Notes under the pieces: generated by a model
Database searches by the model: none
Told to the model about the DNA's origin: nothing
What the model saw: only the letters and a program-made list of their open reading frames with translations
Part shown: positions 57,506 to 64,000 of the stretch, piece after piece
Numbering within the stretch: position 1 is the first letter of the stretch
How the letters are laid out: the number at the start of each line of letters is the position of its first letter
Assembly (NCBI RefSeq): GCF_005889725.1
Contig: NZ_VCKX01000004.1
Span: forward strand, 1 to 64,000
From: Nonomuraea zeae
GTDB taxonomy: Bacteria > Actinomycetota > Actinomycetes > Streptosporangiales > Streptosporangiaceae
Length of the DNA stretch: 64,000 nt
Direction of reading: 5' to 3'
Program-made: the position numbers and the translations under genes

Positions 57506-57862
57506 ATGACCTCCTCCATCCCGCCGCTGCGCCCAGCGATCGATCGGACCGCCGCCAAGCCGTCTCCGGCTCGCGAGCCGCTGTGGCGGCAGGTGCTCGG
57601 CGAGCGTCTGCGAGGTCTTCGTCACGAGCGGGGCGAGAAGTTGAGCGAGACGGCAAGCCGCGCCGGAGTCTCGCCGCAATATCTCTCCGAGATGGAGCGA
57701 GGCATCAAAGAGCCGTCGAGCGAGATGATCGCCGCAGTCGCCGGCGCGCTGGATGTGACGCTGGTTGATCTGACCCTTGCCGTCGCCGAGAGCTTGCAGT
57801 CTGCTCAGCACAGCACGTCGAGAGGTGCTACCTGCTCGGCGGCGTATGCCCTGGCCGCGTAG
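57506..57862 (+). CDS. ClgR-like XRE family regulator
   Basis: The 118-residue protein has an XRE helix-turn-helix at about 30-85 (LGERLRGLRHERGEKLSETASRAGVSPQYLSEMERGIKEPSSEMIAAVAGALDV) that closely resembles ClgR, the activator of clp protease genes in actinobacteria. It is convergent with a clpP pair. The C-terminus ends in AALAA-like residues (AAYALAA), reminiscent of the ClpP degradation signal reported for ClgR/PopR. Upstream lies GTTCCGC-N14-GCGGAAC (57449-57476). Confidence 0.82.
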   Translation: MTSSIPPLRPAIDRTAAKPSPAREPLWRQVLGERLRGLRHERGEKLSETASRAGVSPQYLSEMERGIKEPSSEMIAAVAGALDVTLVDLTLAVAESLQSAQHSTSRGATCSAAYALAA

Positions 57863-57889
57863 CGTGGCTTGCCGGGGTTGTCCGCGGGC

Positions 57890-58480
57890 CTACGAATGCT
57901 CCTCGATGATCTGATCGATGAGCCCGTACTCCAGGGCCGCGGTCGCGGTGAACACGCGATCGTGATCGGTGTCGGCGCGTAGGGTCTCGATCGTCTGGCC
58001 GGTGTGCCGCGACAGGATGCGCTCGATGTCTGCCCGGACACGTACGACCTCGTCGGCCTGCAGGATGAGATCGGGGATCGTTCCGCGCCCCTGGGCGGCC
58101 GGCTGGTGCAGGATCACTCGCGCGTGCGGGAGAGCGGCACGTTTTCCTTCCGCACCCGCGGCGAGTAGGACGGCACCCACCGCGACAGCCTGCCCCACGC
58201 AGGTTGTCGAAACCCGCGGCCGGATATGGCGCATGGTGTCGTATATCGCGAGCATCGCGCTCGGGTCCCCGCCTTCGCAGTTGATATAGAACTGTATTTC
58301 GGCGTCGGGGTTGTCCGACTCCAGAAAGATCAGCTGCGCGATGAGCGCGTTCGCGACGCCCGCGTCAATCGCGGTGCCCAGATATACGATTCGCTCGGTG
58401 AGCAGGTGCGAGTAGACATCCATGATCCGCTCGCCACGAGGATTCTGAGCGATGACGTTCGGGATCGTATATGTGGTCAC
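57890..58480 (-). CDS. ClpP-like subunit lacking the catalytic serine
   Basis: The 196-residue protein is a full-length ClpP fold (IVYLGTAIDAGVANALIAQLIFLESD; INCEGGDPSAMLAIYDTM). The nucleophile position reads GQAVAVGAVLLAAG, so A100 (GCG) stands where ClpP has Ser (GMAASMGAFLLAAG). H125 (VILHQP) and D174 (DHDRVFTA) are kept with exact family spacing (+25, +74). It should therefore be inactive as a peptidase and act as a structural or regulatory subunit, comparable to cyanobacterial and plastid ClpR. The start overlaps the stop of the active clpP upstream (ATGA), indicating equal synthesis and probable mixed rings. Confidence 0.9.
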   Translation of the reverse strand: MTTYTIPNVIAQNPRGERIMDVYSHLLTERIVYLGTAIDAGVANALIAQLIFLESDNPDAEIQFYINCEGGDPSAMLAIYDTMRHIRPRVSTTCVGQAVAVGAVLLAAGAEGKRAALPHARVILHQPAAQGRGTIPDLILQADEVVRVRADIERILSRHTGQTIETLRADTDHDRVFTATAALEYGLIDQIIEEHS

Positions 58481-59103
58481 TGACCGACTCCTTCGGTGAC
58501 GCCGAATCCGGGTCGCGGGCGATTGGGTGGCGCGATTTCGTCGAAGCTCTGCACGATGGCATCTATGAAGCCGTAGTCCAGCGCCTCTTGCGCTGTGTAC
58601 CAGCGATCGTGCAGGGAATCCTCGAAGATGCGCTCGACGGGCTGACCCGTGTCCGCGGCGATGAGACCGAGCACCGTGTCACGAGTGTGCCGGAGGTCGC
58701 CGGCCTGCAGCTCGATGTCGACTGCGGTGCCACCGATTCCCGCCGAGCCCTGGTGCATCAGGACACGCGCGTGCGGCAGAGCACGGCGCTTCCCTCGGGC
58801 CCCCGATGACAGCAAGAATTGCCCGGCGCTGTAAGCGATGCCCATCACGAGGGTCGACACGTCACAGGGAATGAGTCGCATGACGTCGCGGATCGCCAGC
58901 ATCGAGGGAACCGAGCCGCCCGGGGAATGAATCCACAATGCGATGTCGGACGACGCGTCCTGCGTGGCGAGCGCCATCAGTTGCGTGGCAAGAAGTGTCC
59001 CGTTGTCGTCGTCGAGAGGACCGTCGAGAACGAGAACACGCTGATCGTAGAGCTCGCGTCTCACCCGCGCGTTGAACAGTGGAAGTTTCGATTCTTCGCT
59101 CAT
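58477..59103 (-). CDS. clpP: ATP-dependent Clp protease proteolytic subunit
   Basis: The 208-residue serine peptidase has an intact triad: S92 in MGIAYSAGQFLLSSG, H117 in VLMHQGS and D166 in LHDRWYTA, with normal spacing. ATG 59103 is used; an in-frame start at 59136 adds 11 residues without domain support. It overlaps the Ser-less paralogue and is convergent with the ClgR-like gene. The sequences differ from housekeeping ClpP1/P2, so this looks like an accessory clpP pair of the ClpP3/P4 kind. Confidence 0.9.
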   Translation of the reverse strand: MSEESKLPLFNARVRRELYDQRVLVLDGPLDDDNGTLLATQLMALATQDASSDIALWIHSPGGSVPSMLAIRDVMRLIPCDVSTLVMGIAYSAGQFLLSSGARGKRRALPHARVLMHQGSAGIGGTAVDIELQAGDLRHTRDTVLGLIAADTGQPVERIFEDSLHDRWYTAQEALDYGFIDAIVQSFDEIAPPNRPRPGFGVTEGVGQ

Positions 59104-59301
59104 GCGTCCATCATGTGAGGCGCTCCGGATCGACATCGACCCGATCCGCCTGGGGCGGATCTGCTCTGAGCAGCGTGAACCCCTGAGCAGGGAGAGCTCC
59201 GGTCGGCGGACCGCACGGGCTCACGGCGCGCGGCAGGCGTTGTCGCCCGGACATCATCAGCCCTACATCCCCTCTCGGGGCGCCTTCTTCTGTATCAGGA
59301 T

Positions 59302-60393: not shown

Positions 60394-60946
60394 CCTTCGG
60401 CATGAGCCACCGGACACTGGACCGGATCACACCCTTGTCACATGACCTCCACACGGCGTTCATGACCGTCCCGATGGTGGCTCGCGCAGCGGGCGTGAGG
60501 ATCTCATGGTCCGATCGGTGAGCTCATAACTGGTTGCCGCCCGTCGAAGCTCCCAGACTGGGCCTTGATCGCAGTCCCCGCGCCGAGGAGATGTCATGGT
60601 CAGGAGTCCCTGGAGCTCAGTTGCTCGTCCTCGGCACGTCCCACCTCCGTGACTCGCTGTGCCGGGGAGATTCGCCGGGCCTCGAAGTAGGCGAGCCGGC
60701 GCCGAGGGCAGCCCGGTCGGTTCGGCGATCTCGCCGGCGCTCAGCGCAACCGGCGGTTCGTGTTTTTGAGCCCCGCACAAGCCCACCAAGCCCTGGCCCA
60801 GGCCGCCTGCCGCTCGATTGACGTGGCGTTCCGGCCGCCGCCCGCGCTGTTTGTAGTGACTCTGTAGGGAGTCTCTGGCGGCGGCTCCCATCCTTGATCA
60901 CAGAGGGCGCCACCAGTGCGCCCCCTGAGGAACCTGGGAGTTCGCC
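60394..60946. other. Intergenic region upstream of the peptide cassette
   Basis: No convincing gene was found. A minus-strand string around 60740 (ALSAGEIAEPTGLPSA) resembles a helix-turn-helix but has no intact gene around it. Near the 3' end are the weak inverted repeat GACTC-N6-GAGTC (60858-60873) and a 6-bp hairpin GGGCGC/GCGCCC (60905-60923) just before the peptide start. They may belong to its promoter or leader. Confidence 0.4.
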
Positions 60947-61024
60947 ATGGCCAAGACCGCCCGTCGTTACGCCAAGTACGCCATCAGCACCCTGTCCAGC
61001 GCCATCTTCGTGCTGCAGGTCTGA
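60947..61024 (+). CDS. 25-residue basic-hydrophobic peptide gene
   Basis: ATG 60947 to TGA 61022-61024 gives a 25-residue peptide; GGGAG stands 6 bases before the start. The N-terminal half is basic and Tyr-containing (MAKTARRYAKYA) and the C-terminal half is a hydrophobic run ending in FVLQV. It lacks Cys, Asp and Glu. It is followed by a strong hairpin and then, on the same strand, by a PaaK-like enzyme and a presenilin-like membrane protein. This is the layout of a precursor peptide or signal peptide with its processing enzymes. The call rests on the RBS, clean frame and context; such a short frame could still be chance. Confidence 0.65.
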   Translation: MAKTARRYAKYAISTLSSAIFVLQV

Positions 61025-61039
61025 CGACGATCGAGTGCG

Positions 61040-61063
61040 CCCCCGGGAGCCTGCTCCCGGGGG
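61040..61063. terminator. Perfect 10-bp hairpin between peptide and PaaK-like genes (attenuator candidate)
   Basis: CCCCCGGGAG-CCTG-CTCCCGGGGG begins 15 bases after the peptide stop and ends 25 bases before the enzyme GTG. A hairpin at this place is common behind precursor-peptide genes, where it gives excess peptide mRNA over enzyme mRNA. Confidence 0.75.
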
Positions 61064-61088
61064 ACACCCACGACGGGAGGAATGCGGC

Positions 61089-62489
61089 GTGTTCGGCACC
61101 GCGGTACGCCAGCTTGGTTACGCCTGGTCGATGATGTCGGGGCGCAGGTTCCGGTTGCGGGACGTGAACACGCTGGTCGACGACATGCGGGAGACCCTGG
61201 AGACGTTCGGCTCGCCCGGCGAGGGCGCCGACGACCTGATCGCGGGCAACGACCCTGAGCTCCAGGAGGACCTCACCCGGCGGCGGCTGCGGCGCACGGT
61301 GGCCCACGCGGCGGCGGAGAGCCCTTACTACCGGCGGTGGTTCGCGGAGCACGGGGTGGACCCGGCCTCGATCACCCCGCAGACCTTGTCCTCGATCACC
61401 CCCACCTTCAAGGCCGACCTGCGCGGCAGGCCGGCGGCGTTCGTCTCCGACCGGGCCACGCCGTCCGTGCTCGCGCACACGACGGGCACGACGGGCACGC
61501 CGACGCTCGTGTGGTTCTCCGCGTACGAGATCGAGCTGATGTCGTCCTTGTCGGCTCTCGGGCTCATGATGGCCGGGAACGTGCGCCCGGACGACGTCTG
61601 GGCCAACGCGAGCAGCTCGCGCTCCGTGGCACAGATCCTCACCGAGCGGGCCGTCACCCGTACCGGGGCGGCGTTCGCGCACCTGGGCACCATCGACCCG
61701 GCCGCCACGCTCGACCGGCTGGCCACTCCCCTCCATGTTCCCGGCAAACGCCCGCAGATCTCTCATCTCAACCTGGCGGCCTCCTACCTCGCGGCACTCG
61801 TGCAGGAGGCCGAGCGGGGCGGCTGGCGGGCCGGCGACTTCGCGCTGACCACCATCTGGTCCGGCGGCGAGGTGCTCACCGACGCGCTGCGCGAGCGGGC
61901 GGAGCGCGCGTTCGGGGCCGAGGTCCGCGACGGGTACGCCATGACCGAGATCGCCCCGGTGTCCGGCCGCGTCTGCCCCGACGGCCACCTGCACCTGCCC
62001 GTCGATCAGGGCCTGGTCGAAATACTCGACCCCGGCACCCTGGCCCCCGCCGCTCCCGGTGAGGTCGGCACGATCGTGGTGACGCCGTACTCGGCCTTCC
62101 GCGACACCACGCTCCTGCTCAGGTACGTCACCGGCGACCTCGTCAAGGTCCTGCCCGAGGAGGAGACGCCGGCGTGCGCGCTGGCAGCCCTGCCCGCCAC
62201 CTCGCGGGTGCTCGGCCGCAGGTCGCCCGGCGGACTCACCACGCGTGACGTGCTGGACCTGCTGCAGGCCGAGCACGCGCTGCCGCTGCCCACCCGGTAC
62301 GCCCTGGAGGGCACGATCCTGTACGTCGTCGCGGGCAAGGGCGAGCAGGGCCTGCTCGGCCGGCTGGAGGAGCGCGCGCACGGGCTGCCCCTGACCGGCA
62401 TCGTCCTGGTCGAGACCGCCGAGGACCTGCCCGCGCCCTGCCGGCTCCGCGCGGACCTGCTGGAGTTCAGCTTCGAGCGAGGACTGTGA
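61089..62489 (+). CDS. PaaK-like adenylate-forming enzyme
   Basis: The 466-residue protein is a phenylacetate-CoA-ligase-like member of the ANL family. GTG 61089 has GGGAGGA 8 bases before; the open frame upstream to 60894 overlaps the peptide gene and is not protein-like. The ATP phosphate loop is TTGTTGTPT (131-139), the A5-type motif is DGYAMTEIAPV (281-291) and the A7-type motif is YVTGD (346-350). The N-terminal RRTVAHAAAESPYYRRWF fits PaaK relatives. It should adenylate a carboxylate; the adjacent peptide C-terminus or a fatty/aryl acid to be put on the peptide are candidate substrates. The stop overlaps the next start. Confidence 0.87.
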   Translation: MFGTAVRQLGYAWSMMSGRRFRLRDVNTLVDDMRETLETFGSPGEGADDLIAGNDPELQEDLTRRRLRRTVAHAAAESPYYRRWFAEHGVDPASITPQTLSSITPTFKADLRGRPAAFVSDRATPSVLAHTTGTTGTPTLVWFSAYEIELMSSLSALGLMMAGNVRPDDVWANASSSRSVAQILTERAVTRTGAAFAHLGTIDPAATLDRLATPLHVPGKRPQISHLNLAASYLAALVQEAERGGWRAGDFALTTIWSGGEVLTDALRERAERAFGAEVRDGYAMTEIAPVSGRVCPDGHLHLPVDQGLVEILDPGTLAPAAPGEVGTIVVTPYSAFRDTTLLLRYVTGDLVKVLPEEETPACALAALPATSRVLGRRSPGGLTTRDVLDLLQAEHALPLPTRYALEGTILYVVAGKGEQGLLGRLEERAHGLPLTGIVLVETAEDLPAPCRLRADLLEFSFERGL

Positions 62490-63460
62490 TGATCCCGTAC
62501 GTGCTCGCCCTGTACGCCCTCGTCGCTCTGACCGTGGCTCTCACCGCCGCGTACCTGGGCCGCTACGTCATGCCCAGACCGCCGGTCGGCCGGATGGTGG
62601 GCACCGATGTCGCGGTCATGGTGGGGGCGCTGGTCGTGATGCCGTTCGCGTACCTGCACGTGCCCGCCGGCGTGGTCGTGTCGGTCTTCGGGCTCGTGAT
62701 CCTGACGTTGGCCCAGCTCACTCTCGCCCCCGTGCTGGGCGGCCGGTGGGCCATGCTCGCCGCCCTGCTCCTGTGCGCCGCCGACGTCACCGCCTACGCG
62801 CTGGGCTGGCCGGCCGCGCTCCTCGTGATCAACGACGCCCTGCTGATCCTGCTCGTCGTCGGCGTGGTGAACCTGTGGACACAGGCGGCGATCACGCCCG
62901 CGCAGGTGGCCGCGCTGGCCGCCGCCCTCACCCTGTACGACACGCTGGCCACCGGGCTGACGTCGCTCACCGTCGACTTCGTCCAGCGCATGCGGGGGCT
63001 GCCGTTCGCGCCCGTACTGGCCACCTCCTACGGCGAGAATCCCGCCCTCATCGGCCTCGGCGACTGCCTGATGTTGTCGATCTGGCCGGTGGTGGCGCTG
63101 CGGGCGTACGGGAAGGCGGCCGCGTGGTGCGCCGCCGGCCTGGAAGCCGTCCTGCTGGCCGTGTCCATCGCCCTCGTCCTGTCCAGTGGCCGGCCGCTGC
63201 CGCTGCTGACCTTGCTCGGACCGCTGATCTTCCTCCAGTGGGTGTACTGGCGGCGCCGGCAGGCCCTCAGGGCTCCGGCGCCGGCCCGGCCCGAGGTGGA
63301 TCGGGCGCTGGAGGTCGCCGCCGCGCCCGCCGGGGTGTGGGCCGCCCTGTCGCCCGATGGCCTGCTGCTCGCCGAAGGTGCCACACCGGGGCTGGCGCGC
63401 AAGGAGGCCCGGCTGGCGGGAGCGGAAAGCGTGCCGGTCGTGTGGCGGCTCAGCGAATAG
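62489..63460 (+). CDS. Presenilin/SPP-like nine-helix intramembrane aspartyl protease candidate with soluble tail
   Basis: The 323-residue protein has nine hydrophobic helices (about 2-24, 38-57, 60-84, 88-107, 109-130, 137-157, 187-208, 212-233 and 237-255). Y150-D151 lies in helix 6 (ALTLYDTLATG) and G189-L190-G191-D192 in helix 7 (ALIGLGDCLML). These are the two catalytic Asp motifs, YD and GxGD, of family A22. The GKAA after helix 7 (RAYGKAAAW) also recalls presenilin. The third PAL motif appears only in degenerate form (RPLPLLTLLGP). Residues 256-323 are soluble and resemble a small DUF5678-like unit (DGLLLAEGATPGLARKEARLAG). It is coupled by TGATG to the PaaK-like gene. A prepilin-peptidase-like GxGD protease is the alternative. 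Confidence 0.78.
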   Translation: MIPYVLALYALVALTVALTAAYLGRYVMPRPPVGRMVGTDVAVMVGALVVMPFAYLHVPAGVVVSVFGLVILTLAQLTLAPVLGGRWAMLAALLLCAADVTAYALGWPAALLVINDALLILLVVGVVNLWTQAAITPAQVAALAAALTLYDTLATGLTSLTVDFVQRMRGLPFAPVLATSYGENPALIGLGDCLMLSIWPVVALRAYGKAAAWCAAGLEAVLLAVSIALVLSSGRPLPLLTLLGPLIFLQWVYWRRRQALRAPAPARPEVDRALEVAAAPAGVWAALSPDGLLLAEGATPGLARKEARLAGAESVPVVWRLSE

Positions 63461-63502
63461 CCGTCGGGGGTCGGGGGTTCGGGGGTCGGGCAAGGGATTC
63501 GA

Positions 63503-64000
63503 TCAGCCCGCCAGATATTCGGCCACCTGCCGCCCCTCGGCCGCGTCGCCGAACAGGGCGAGGGAGCCGCGCCACGCCGCCACCGACTCCTCGTGCCGCC
63601 CGAGCAGGGCGTGGGCCCGGCCCAGCTCCCTGAGCGTGCGGGCGCGCCACACCGAAGGCCCGTCGCCGCCGAGCCGTTCCAGCGCGGCCCGCAGGTGCGA
63701 AAGCGCCCGGCCGGGCTCGCCCTGGCGCAGGCGTACCACGCCGAGGGTGTGCCCGGCCAGCGCCTCGCCCAGGGTGTCGCCGCACTCCACGAACAGCCGG
63801 AGGCTCGCCGCCAGCGCCTCGGCCGCCTCGTCGAACCGGCCCAGCGCACCCAGCGCCTCACCCAGCCGGCGCAGCACCTTGCTCATCTCCATGCGATCGC
63901 CGAGCGCCTTGGCCGTCAGCAGGCTCTCCCGGTAGCGGACGACGGCCTCGGCCGTCTCGCCCTGCTGGTAGAGGGCGGTGCCGAGGCCGCGCAGCAGGTT
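63503..64000 (-). CDS. TPR-repeat protein, C-terminal part (start outside window)
   Basis: The minus-strand frame is open from the window end to the stop at 63503 (165 codons). It consists of tetratricopeptide units (LRGLGTALYQQGETAEAVVRY; VLRRLGEALGALGRFDEAAEAL; HTLGVVRLRQGEPGRALSHL; TLRELGRAHALLGRHEESVAAW). Such C-terminal TPR arrays are typical of AfsR/SARP or NB-ARC regulators in actinomycetes; the rest of the protein is not in view. Confidence 0.85.
   Translation of the reverse strand, partial: NLLRGLGTALYQQGETAEAVVRYRESLLTAKALGDRMEMSKVLRRLGEALGALGRFDEAAEALAASLRLFVECGDTLGEALAGHTLGVVRLRQGEPGRALSHLRAALERLGGDGPSVWRARTLRELGRAHALLGRHEESVAAWRGSLALFGDAAEGRQVAEYLAG

Follow-up and report, generated by a model that had tools for sequence, protein, structure and literature searches.

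The 64,000-nucleotide stretch of Nonomuraea zeae contig NZ_VCKX01000004.1 (positions 1 to 64,000; the whole stretch is called the window here) carries three packed genes near its 3' end. Sequence comparison showed that these genes, which encode a short peptide, a PaaK-like enzyme of the ANL (adenylate-forming) superfamily and a membrane protein with the predicted fold of presenilin and signal peptide peptidase (SPP), make up one conserved unit of soil actinomycetes. The initial annotation of this DNA had proposed them as a candidate new system, and this proposal is now well supported, since the genes co-occur and the peptide is conserved. The layout it had described also stood: the three open reading frames (ORFs) lie on the same strand, the peptide ORF follows a GGGAG ribosome-binding site, and the membrane ORF overlaps the stop of the enzyme gene.

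A conserved three-gene unit

The unit was found from two sides in the family of the window. The membrane-protein query returned nine loci in 8 of 150 sampled genomes, and the enzyme gene adjoined the membrane gene at all nine. The enzyme query (E ≤ 1e-20) returned 36 matches in 34 genomes among 341, a count that is a lower bound because only the four best candidates per genome were scored. Thirty-four of these 36 loci were linked to a membrane gene, two of the 34 being decayed. At the 32 intact loci, which came from 30 genomes, the membrane gene lay next to the enzyme gene and started between -11 and +34 nucleotides (nt) from its end; three of these loci were cut by a contig end. With three more on Streptomyces and Embleya records, the intact loci numbered 35. 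The initial annotation had suggested looking for a conserved short ORF upstream of the enzyme-membrane gene pair in related genomes, and the peptide was found at all 35, upstream at 34 of them. Neither of the two outcomes that it had named as refuting the system (related loci lacking a conserved short ORF, or PaaK and membrane genes never found together) was observed.

A plasmid collection yielded four records, and they were identical whether it was searched with both membrane queries combined or with the enzyme (E ≤ 1e-20): N. gerenzanensis (decayed), two Streptomyces plasmids and one Embleya replicon. The record with gene annotation at the locus listed a "phenylacetate--CoA ligase family protein" and a "hypothetical protein", and the peptide was unannotated. 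The nearest named relative of the unit was that of Nonomuraea sp. PA05 (locus L022, genome G634), its enzyme being 89% and its membrane protein 81% identical.

Several loci were left out of the 35. The decayed copies of Nonomuraea gerenzanensis (L023 and L083, the latter being genome G630) and of L067 (G647) had a truncated enzyme, a broken or remnant membrane gene and no peptide. The generic PaaK loci L068 (G650) and L069 (G122), the weakest enzyme matches (E about 1e-21), had neither membrane gene nor peptide. Duplicates (L071, identical to L022, and L083, which matches as L023 does and is probably from the same species) and L036 (72 amino acids (aa), E 7e-4) were not counted either. The marginal membrane match at L031 (E 5e-4) was rejected; it was in frame with an ABC-permease-like ORF, and the surrounding 14 kb (L033) contained no PaaK. 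Class-wide searches found 1 of 394 genomes (the genome of the window itself) and 2 of 394 (the same genome and L036), which is weak evidence of rarity because only five candidates were scored per genome. The order-wide search found 5 of 200 genomes, one being L031, and the genome-contig scan found one locus.

The features of the locus are listed in Table 1. The GTG start of the enzyme gene at 61089 was preceded by GGGAGG, and the ATG of the membrane ORF at 62489 fell within the stop codon of the enzyme gene. No Rfam match was found in 60400-64000 of the window; a promoter scan of the locus gave no site, and a terminator scan gave nothing terminator-like. The assembly of the window comprised 13.6 Mb in 756 contigs with 8.8% contamination.

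Table 1. Features of the three-gene locus and its immediate neighbour in the window
Feature	Position	Strand	Evidence
Peptide ribosome-binding site, GGGAG	60936..60940	+	sequence
Peptide ORF, 25 codons and stop, MAKTARRYAKYAISTLSSAIFVLQV	60947..61024	+	kept in 35/35 intact loci; selection
G+C-rich hairpin in the peptide/enzyme spacer, arms 61040-61049 and 61054-61063	61040..61063	+	predicted fold
PaaK-like ANL (adenylate-forming) enzyme, 466 aa, GTG start	61089..62489	+	Pfam AMP-binding, PDB matches, model
Membrane protein with predicted presenilin/SPP fold, 323 aa	62489..63460	+	model, fold searches, 35 homologues aligned
Y150-D151, first predicted catalytic motif, helix 6	62936..62941	+	35/35
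G189-L-G-D192, GxGD motif, start of helix 7	63053..63064	+	34/34 sequences reaching the motif
P238-L-L at the PAL position, start of helix 9	63200..63208	+	Pro in 30/33 sequences reaching the site
3' end of AfsR-type SARP gene, convergent, running past the window (L013:3504-6665)	63503..64000	-	Pfam; outside the core

The presenilin-like membrane protein

AlphaFold2 modelled the membrane protein with a predicted local distance difference test score (pLDDT) of 81.8 and a predicted template modelling score (pTM) of 0.72; the model has nine membrane helices, and strands precede helix 7. When the model was compared with the PDB by Foldseek, the nine best matches were all chains of SPPL2a, presenilin-1 or archaeal PSH (E 2e-4 to 0.08), and the tenth had an E-value of 0.9. 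Structural alignment by VIA-align gave Z scores of 23.3 for SPPL2a (root-mean-square deviation (rmsd) 3.2, 250 residues aligned), up to 21.1 for presenilin-1 (rmsd 4.8, 257 aligned) and 16.7 for archaeal PSH (rmsd 3.5, 222 aligned), and 5.0 for the first unrelated chain. A nine-helix presenilin/SPP fold is well supported by this model.

The signature of GxGD proteases consists of YD, GxGD and the PAL proline, according to excerpts of PMC2947513 and PMC12067869. YD was invariant in all 35 membrane proteins, and GxGD in all 34 that reach it. The PAL position was occupied by Pro in 30 of 33 sequences and by Ala in three; the following residues varied (PLL, PAQ, PSQ and others), and a literal PAL was absent. 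Pfam matches of the 35 members at E-values up to 1 included no presenilin or SPP family, the membrane protein had no sequence match in the PDB, and neither it nor the peptide of the window matched Pfam or NCBIfam; therefore, without recognition by a curated profile, the protein is called presenilin-like and is not placed in the presenilin or SPP families. The initial annotation had named a nine-helix protein with YD and GLGD, and both the helices and the motifs were located in the model. Its term "presenilin-like protease" is well supported by the fold and the two motifs, the activity being predicted.

The mean number of lysine and arginine residues was 3.83, 1.03, 0.89, 2.15 and 3.64 in the loops predicted inside and 0.17, 0.11, 0.26, 1.65 and 0.24 in those predicted outside. 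These charges would place the N-terminus outside and the C-terminus inside, which is the orientation of SPP and opposite to that of presenilin. Together with the basic head of the peptide, this orientation would suit a peptide inserted head-in. From the model and its motifs, the protein is probably an active aspartyl intramembrane protease.

The PaaK-like enzyme

The enzyme matched Pfam AMP-binding with an E-value of 8.5e-15 (54.9 bits against a cut-off of 29.9), and its family profile matched the PaaK structure 4r1l in the PDB with an E-value of 2.9e-40, both of which bear out the initial description as a PaaK-like adenylate-forming enzyme. The model built from 32 sequences (pLDDT 88.0, pTM 0.89) showed a two-domain fold, and its VIA Z scores were 33.5 with 2-hydroxyisobutyryl-CoA ligase, 32.2 with PaaK1, 30.0 with NatL2 and 29.4 with ClxA. 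The P-loop residues T131, T132, G133, T134 and G136, together with T286, E287, R345, T348 and D350, were invariant in all 35 sequences; within the P-loop, T135 was kept in 32 and P138 in 34. Residue K108, which aligned with a lysine of PaaK structures, was also invariant, as were R454, D456, E459 and F462 near the C-terminus. The initial annotation had named a carboxyl-activated or acylated peptide as a possible outcome, which the intact adenylation motifs would allow. The NCBIfam PaaK equivalog TIGR02155 was not reached (73.3 bits against a cut-off of 646.3). Judged from its sequence, the enzyme is a PaaK-like member of the ANL superfamily and not PaaK proper.

The conserved peptide

All of the first ten loci carried a short ORF with a common core. 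The regular expression K.{2,8}Y..[GS].[LM]..[AVS].F was set on these loci, after a tighter first version had matched six of the ten and was widened. In its widened form it matched a single small ORF at each of these loci (10 of 1014 distinct ones); in the window the count was 1 of 441. Kept unchanged, it matched in the 600 nt preceding the enzyme gene at 20 of 25 further loci; among the 2360 small ORFs (18-40 aa) of these loci there were 21 matches, the 21st being the peptide of L087. A variant of the peptide was recognised by eye at four of the 25 (L076 and L080-L082). The four control loci (two generic PaaK loci and two decayed operons) gave no match. The peptide was thus present upstream at 34 intact loci and downstream of the membrane gene at one, L087, where the order is permuted and the peptide ORF begins at the stop codon of the membrane gene, in an ATGA overlap.

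The peptides were 22-31 aa long, with two to four Lys or Arg residues in the head and zero or one acidic residue in the whole peptide. The initial annotation had also suggested aligning the short ORFs, and the alignment of the 34 upstream copies was free of gaps in the core. Column F23 was invariant and Y13 was Tyr in 33 of 34; the core was conserved, and the positions after F23 were the most variable. The ratio of nonsynonymous to synonymous differences (pN/pS) was 0.45 when pooled over 83 non-independent pairs, and 0.077/0.266 = 0.29 when summed over eight separately printed pairs. The comparison of codons showed purifying selection acting on the ORF as a peptide. A Shine-Dalgarno core of at least 4 nt was found upstream of the peptide at 31 of 34 loci; it was weak at L074, L076 and L088 and distant at L080-L082. 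The spacer between peptide and enzyme gene folded better than its shuffles (mean z -2.9, 25 of 34 loci below -2) and also better than an equally long stretch upstream of the peptide (mean z -1.3, 11 of 34 loci below -2). In the window itself, the spacer had a z of only -1.2 and the stretch upstream of the peptide had -3.8. At L089 the spacer measured 367 nt.

Relations among the three products

The first 18 residues of the enzyme (61089-61142, MFGTAVRQLGYAWSMMSG) resembled the start of the peptide (60947-61000, MAKTARRYAKYAISTLSS), and hhalign aligned the two start to start with an E-value of 0.0017. Under local settings the real score was 16.9, against a mean of 4.2, a standard deviation of 2.3 and a maximum of 17.3 for 200 column shuffles; the likeness is insecure because at least one of the shuffles outscored it. 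In a BLOSUM scan, the N-terminal segment of the enzyme had the top score (20.4), narrowly ahead of another segment (19.2), and peptides paired with their own enzymes scored barely better than with foreign ones (20.4 vs 19.8). A peptide-like N-terminus of the enzyme is suggestive only. Mantel correlations over 31 loci were 0.92 between peptide and enzyme and 0.91 between peptide and membrane protein (0 of 2000 permutations); these do not go beyond what shared descent explains. The peptide profile gave no match to the membrane-protein profile.

Neighbouring genes

The flanking ORFs of the 35 loci (437 in total) were clustered. Besides the two core genes, the most recurrent family was an AfsR-type SARP in which Pfam recognised DNA-binding, BTAD, NB-ARC and TPR domains; it was present at 18 of 35 loci as a raw count. 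It was convergent beside the membrane gene at 14 loci (at L073 the called ORF runs into the membrane gene) and upstream and divergent at four (at L084 another gene intervenes). It could not be seen at L015, L020 and L072 because these loci are cut just downstream. The SARP is a possible fourth component, outside the core. PADLOC gave no match for the enzyme and the membrane protein of the window, and for the SARP nothing beyond a TPR model and a weak stretch of PDC-S73; the identity of the unit as a defence system was rejected because those two proteins had no PADLOC match.

A mixed cluster, present at eight loci, included ABC-type ATPases, and at the related loci L034, L085 and L088 a convergent gene recognised by eye as an ABC-type ATPase lay directly 3' of the membrane gene. 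In one clade (L018, L019, L020, L084, L086 and L090), a small, secreted-looking ORF that was cupredoxin-like by eye preceded the peptide, at a distance of about 0.2-0.8 kb from the enzyme gene; it had no Pfam match, and its PDB matches were insignificant (plastocyanin, E 0.2). A PaaX-type regulator gene was located upstream of the unit at L017 (L017:7328-8167). No other catabolic gene recurred in the clusters. On the minus strand of the window, at 57506-59136, a ClpP-like gene pair stood beside a divergent XRE-type regulator ORF, all named by eye.

A possible peptide-maturation module and its alternatives

We tentatively favour, with belief and doubt close to balance, a dedicated peptide-maturation module in which the protease would cut the peptide, the ANL enzyme would activate a carboxylate and the product would most plausibly be a signal. 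The peptide, with its basic head, Tyr13, small or polar core and invariant Phe23 (alignment columns), would insert head-in like an uncut signal peptide. The presenilin-like protein, oriented as SPP, would then cut it within the membrane and free a fragment; proteolytic release of a membrane peptide is the best reading of these sequences. The enzyme would spend ATP on activating a carboxylate, either at the C-terminus of the peptide, which the cut may have created, or in a small aromatic or acyl acid destined for attachment to the peptide. The product would be a hydrophobic peptide that carries a modification and most plausibly serves as a signal, and the adjacent SARP-NB-ARC-TPR regulator, where present, is a candidate receptor or output. 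In its working, such a module would resemble the maturation of Eep/SHP pheromones, except that an aspartyl protease of the presenilin type would replace the site-2 metalloprotease and an activating enzyme would be added. Excerpts of PMC10202637 offer a precedent in Eep and the peptide pheromones of Gram-positive bacteria. Confidence falls along this chain, from an active protease, through the peptide as its probable substrate and modification of the peptide or its fragment by the enzyme, to a putative signal read by the SARP in some hosts. A bolder form, which we consider doubtful, would see in the unit a new class of pathway for ribosomal peptides. A bacterial protease of the presenilin/SPP type would have a single co-encoded peptide as its dedicated substrate, the ANL enzyme would activate the carboxylate of this peptide (perhaps at the end freed within the membrane), and the resulting modified signal would be read by the SARP-NB-ARC-TPR protein. 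In this pathway the enzyme, through its peptide-like N-terminus, could use the same docking site as the peptide.

Several observations weigh against the maturation module. The hydrophobic stretch of the peptide (about 14 residues in the window copy) is short for spanning a membrane, and the membrane-protein model was built from only ten homologous sequences. No dedicated exporter recurred in the flanking-ORF clusters, and no SARP stood beside 14 of the 32 loci that are uncut downstream. A C-terminal (A10) lysine is typical of ANL enzymes, and the alignment of 35 enzyme sequences had no majority-Lys column near the C-terminus, so that the late steps of ANL catalysis may differ from the usual chemistry.

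An alternative that we consider unlikely is that the peptide is a stable micro-subunit, such as CydX or KdpF, docking on the presenilin-like protein or the enzyme, with another membrane protein or a small acid as the real substrate. The core columns Y13, S/G16, L/M18, the small residues at 19-21 and F23 do resemble a helix-packing face, and the peptide-like start of the enzyme looks as if a docking site were shared; however, small and polar core residues suit a protease substrate too, the tail is variable and looks dispensable, and the likeness is insecure against column shuffles. The short, basic and hydrophobic character of the peptide would also fit a membrane-active toxin or bacteriocin that the enzyme modifies and the presenilin-like protein degrades as immunity, and an excerpt of PMC10470546 reports that RseP degrades membrane proteins of small size and keeps the toxin HokB in check. 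This is rather improbable, given the lack of PADLOC matches for the enzyme and the membrane protein of the window, a core more constrained than the tail, and an adjacent regulator that is a SARP, a type typically found in secondary metabolism according to an excerpt of PMC10972967.

The fold of the enzyme and the PaaX-type regulator upstream at one locus (L017) could instead point to an aromatic-acid pathway formed by the enzyme and the membrane protein, with the short ORF as a minor accessory. We regard this as very unlikely, since no further catabolic gene recurs around the 35 loci and the peptide, kept at all of them, is missing from both generic PaaK loci. Least probable by far is attenuation, with the short ORF as a leader peptide controlling the enzyme gene. 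It would explain the position upstream of the enzyme gene at 34 of 35 loci and the hairpin-prone spacer (mean z -2.9), but it is disfavoured because the peptide of L087 sits downstream of the membrane gene and because the constraint acts on amino acids (pN/pS 0.45); the peptide has no run of regulatory codons, the spacer of L089 is long, and neither an Rfam match nor a terminator-like site was found at the locus.

If it is true, the unit would provide a bacterial presenilin/SPP-fold protein with a dedicated, co-encoded and minimal partner peptide, useful for questions of substrate recognition, and would suggest that actinomycetes have peptide signalling or a new way of modifying peptides. Quorum sensing in the actinomycete phylum is called under-explored in an excerpt of a review (PMC4748050). 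The 35 loci and the short genes make the idea directly testable.

Comparison with known systems

The initial annotation knew of no pathway combining these parts, and the titles and abstract openings of the full-text literature, whose coverage leaves out most subscription journals and preprints, contained no paper describing such a system; none joined "Nonomuraea" with "presenilin". The only passage on a "bacterial presenilin" found there, in an excerpt of PMC8396450, concerns lipid binding of a homologue. We rate the three-gene combination as categorically new. The fold of each protein and the idea of intramembrane peptide maturation are already known, and a narrower kind of novelty would apply if a pheromone pathway were proven.

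With SPP, presenilin and PSH the membrane protein shares the number of nine helices, the placing of YD in helix 6 and of GxGD in helix 7, and the strands before helix 7; Pro occupies its PAL position in 30 of 33 sequences. It differs in being bacterial, in sharing an operon with an ANL enzyme and a dedicated peptide and in having no literal PAL, and its proteolysis is predicted. The enzyme shares with PaaK-like ANL ligases (PaaK1, NatL2, ClxA and 2-hydroxyisobutyryl-CoA ligase) the two-domain fold over residues 12-457 and the motifs TTGTTGxP (P-loop), TE and RYxTxD, but has extra N-terminal helices, has no conserved C-terminal lysine and is co-encoded with a peptide and a putative protease. 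The neighbouring regulator has the DNA-binding, BTAD, NB-ARC and TPR domains of AfsR-type SARPs, beside 18 of the 35 loci only, and its link to the peptide is putative. As in pathways for ribosomally synthesized and post-translationally modified peptides (RiPPs), a precursor-like peptide is co-encoded with a candidate modifying enzyme, the modification being predicted.

Eep with the SHP and sex-pheromone systems likewise has a short peptide with a basic head and partly hydrophobic sequence that lies beside an intramembrane protease or is served by one, with a TPR-type regulator nearby, here at part of the loci. In contrast to these systems, which use a site-2 metalloprotease, the present unit occurs in actinomycetes, has a predicted aspartyl protease of the presenilin type, an extra ANL enzyme and a putative signal, and its regulator is SARP-NB-ARC-TPR instead of Rgg/RRNPP. 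With a presenilin/SPP fold instead of a site-2 metalloprotease, the unit would work like Eep/SHP without being a member of that group.

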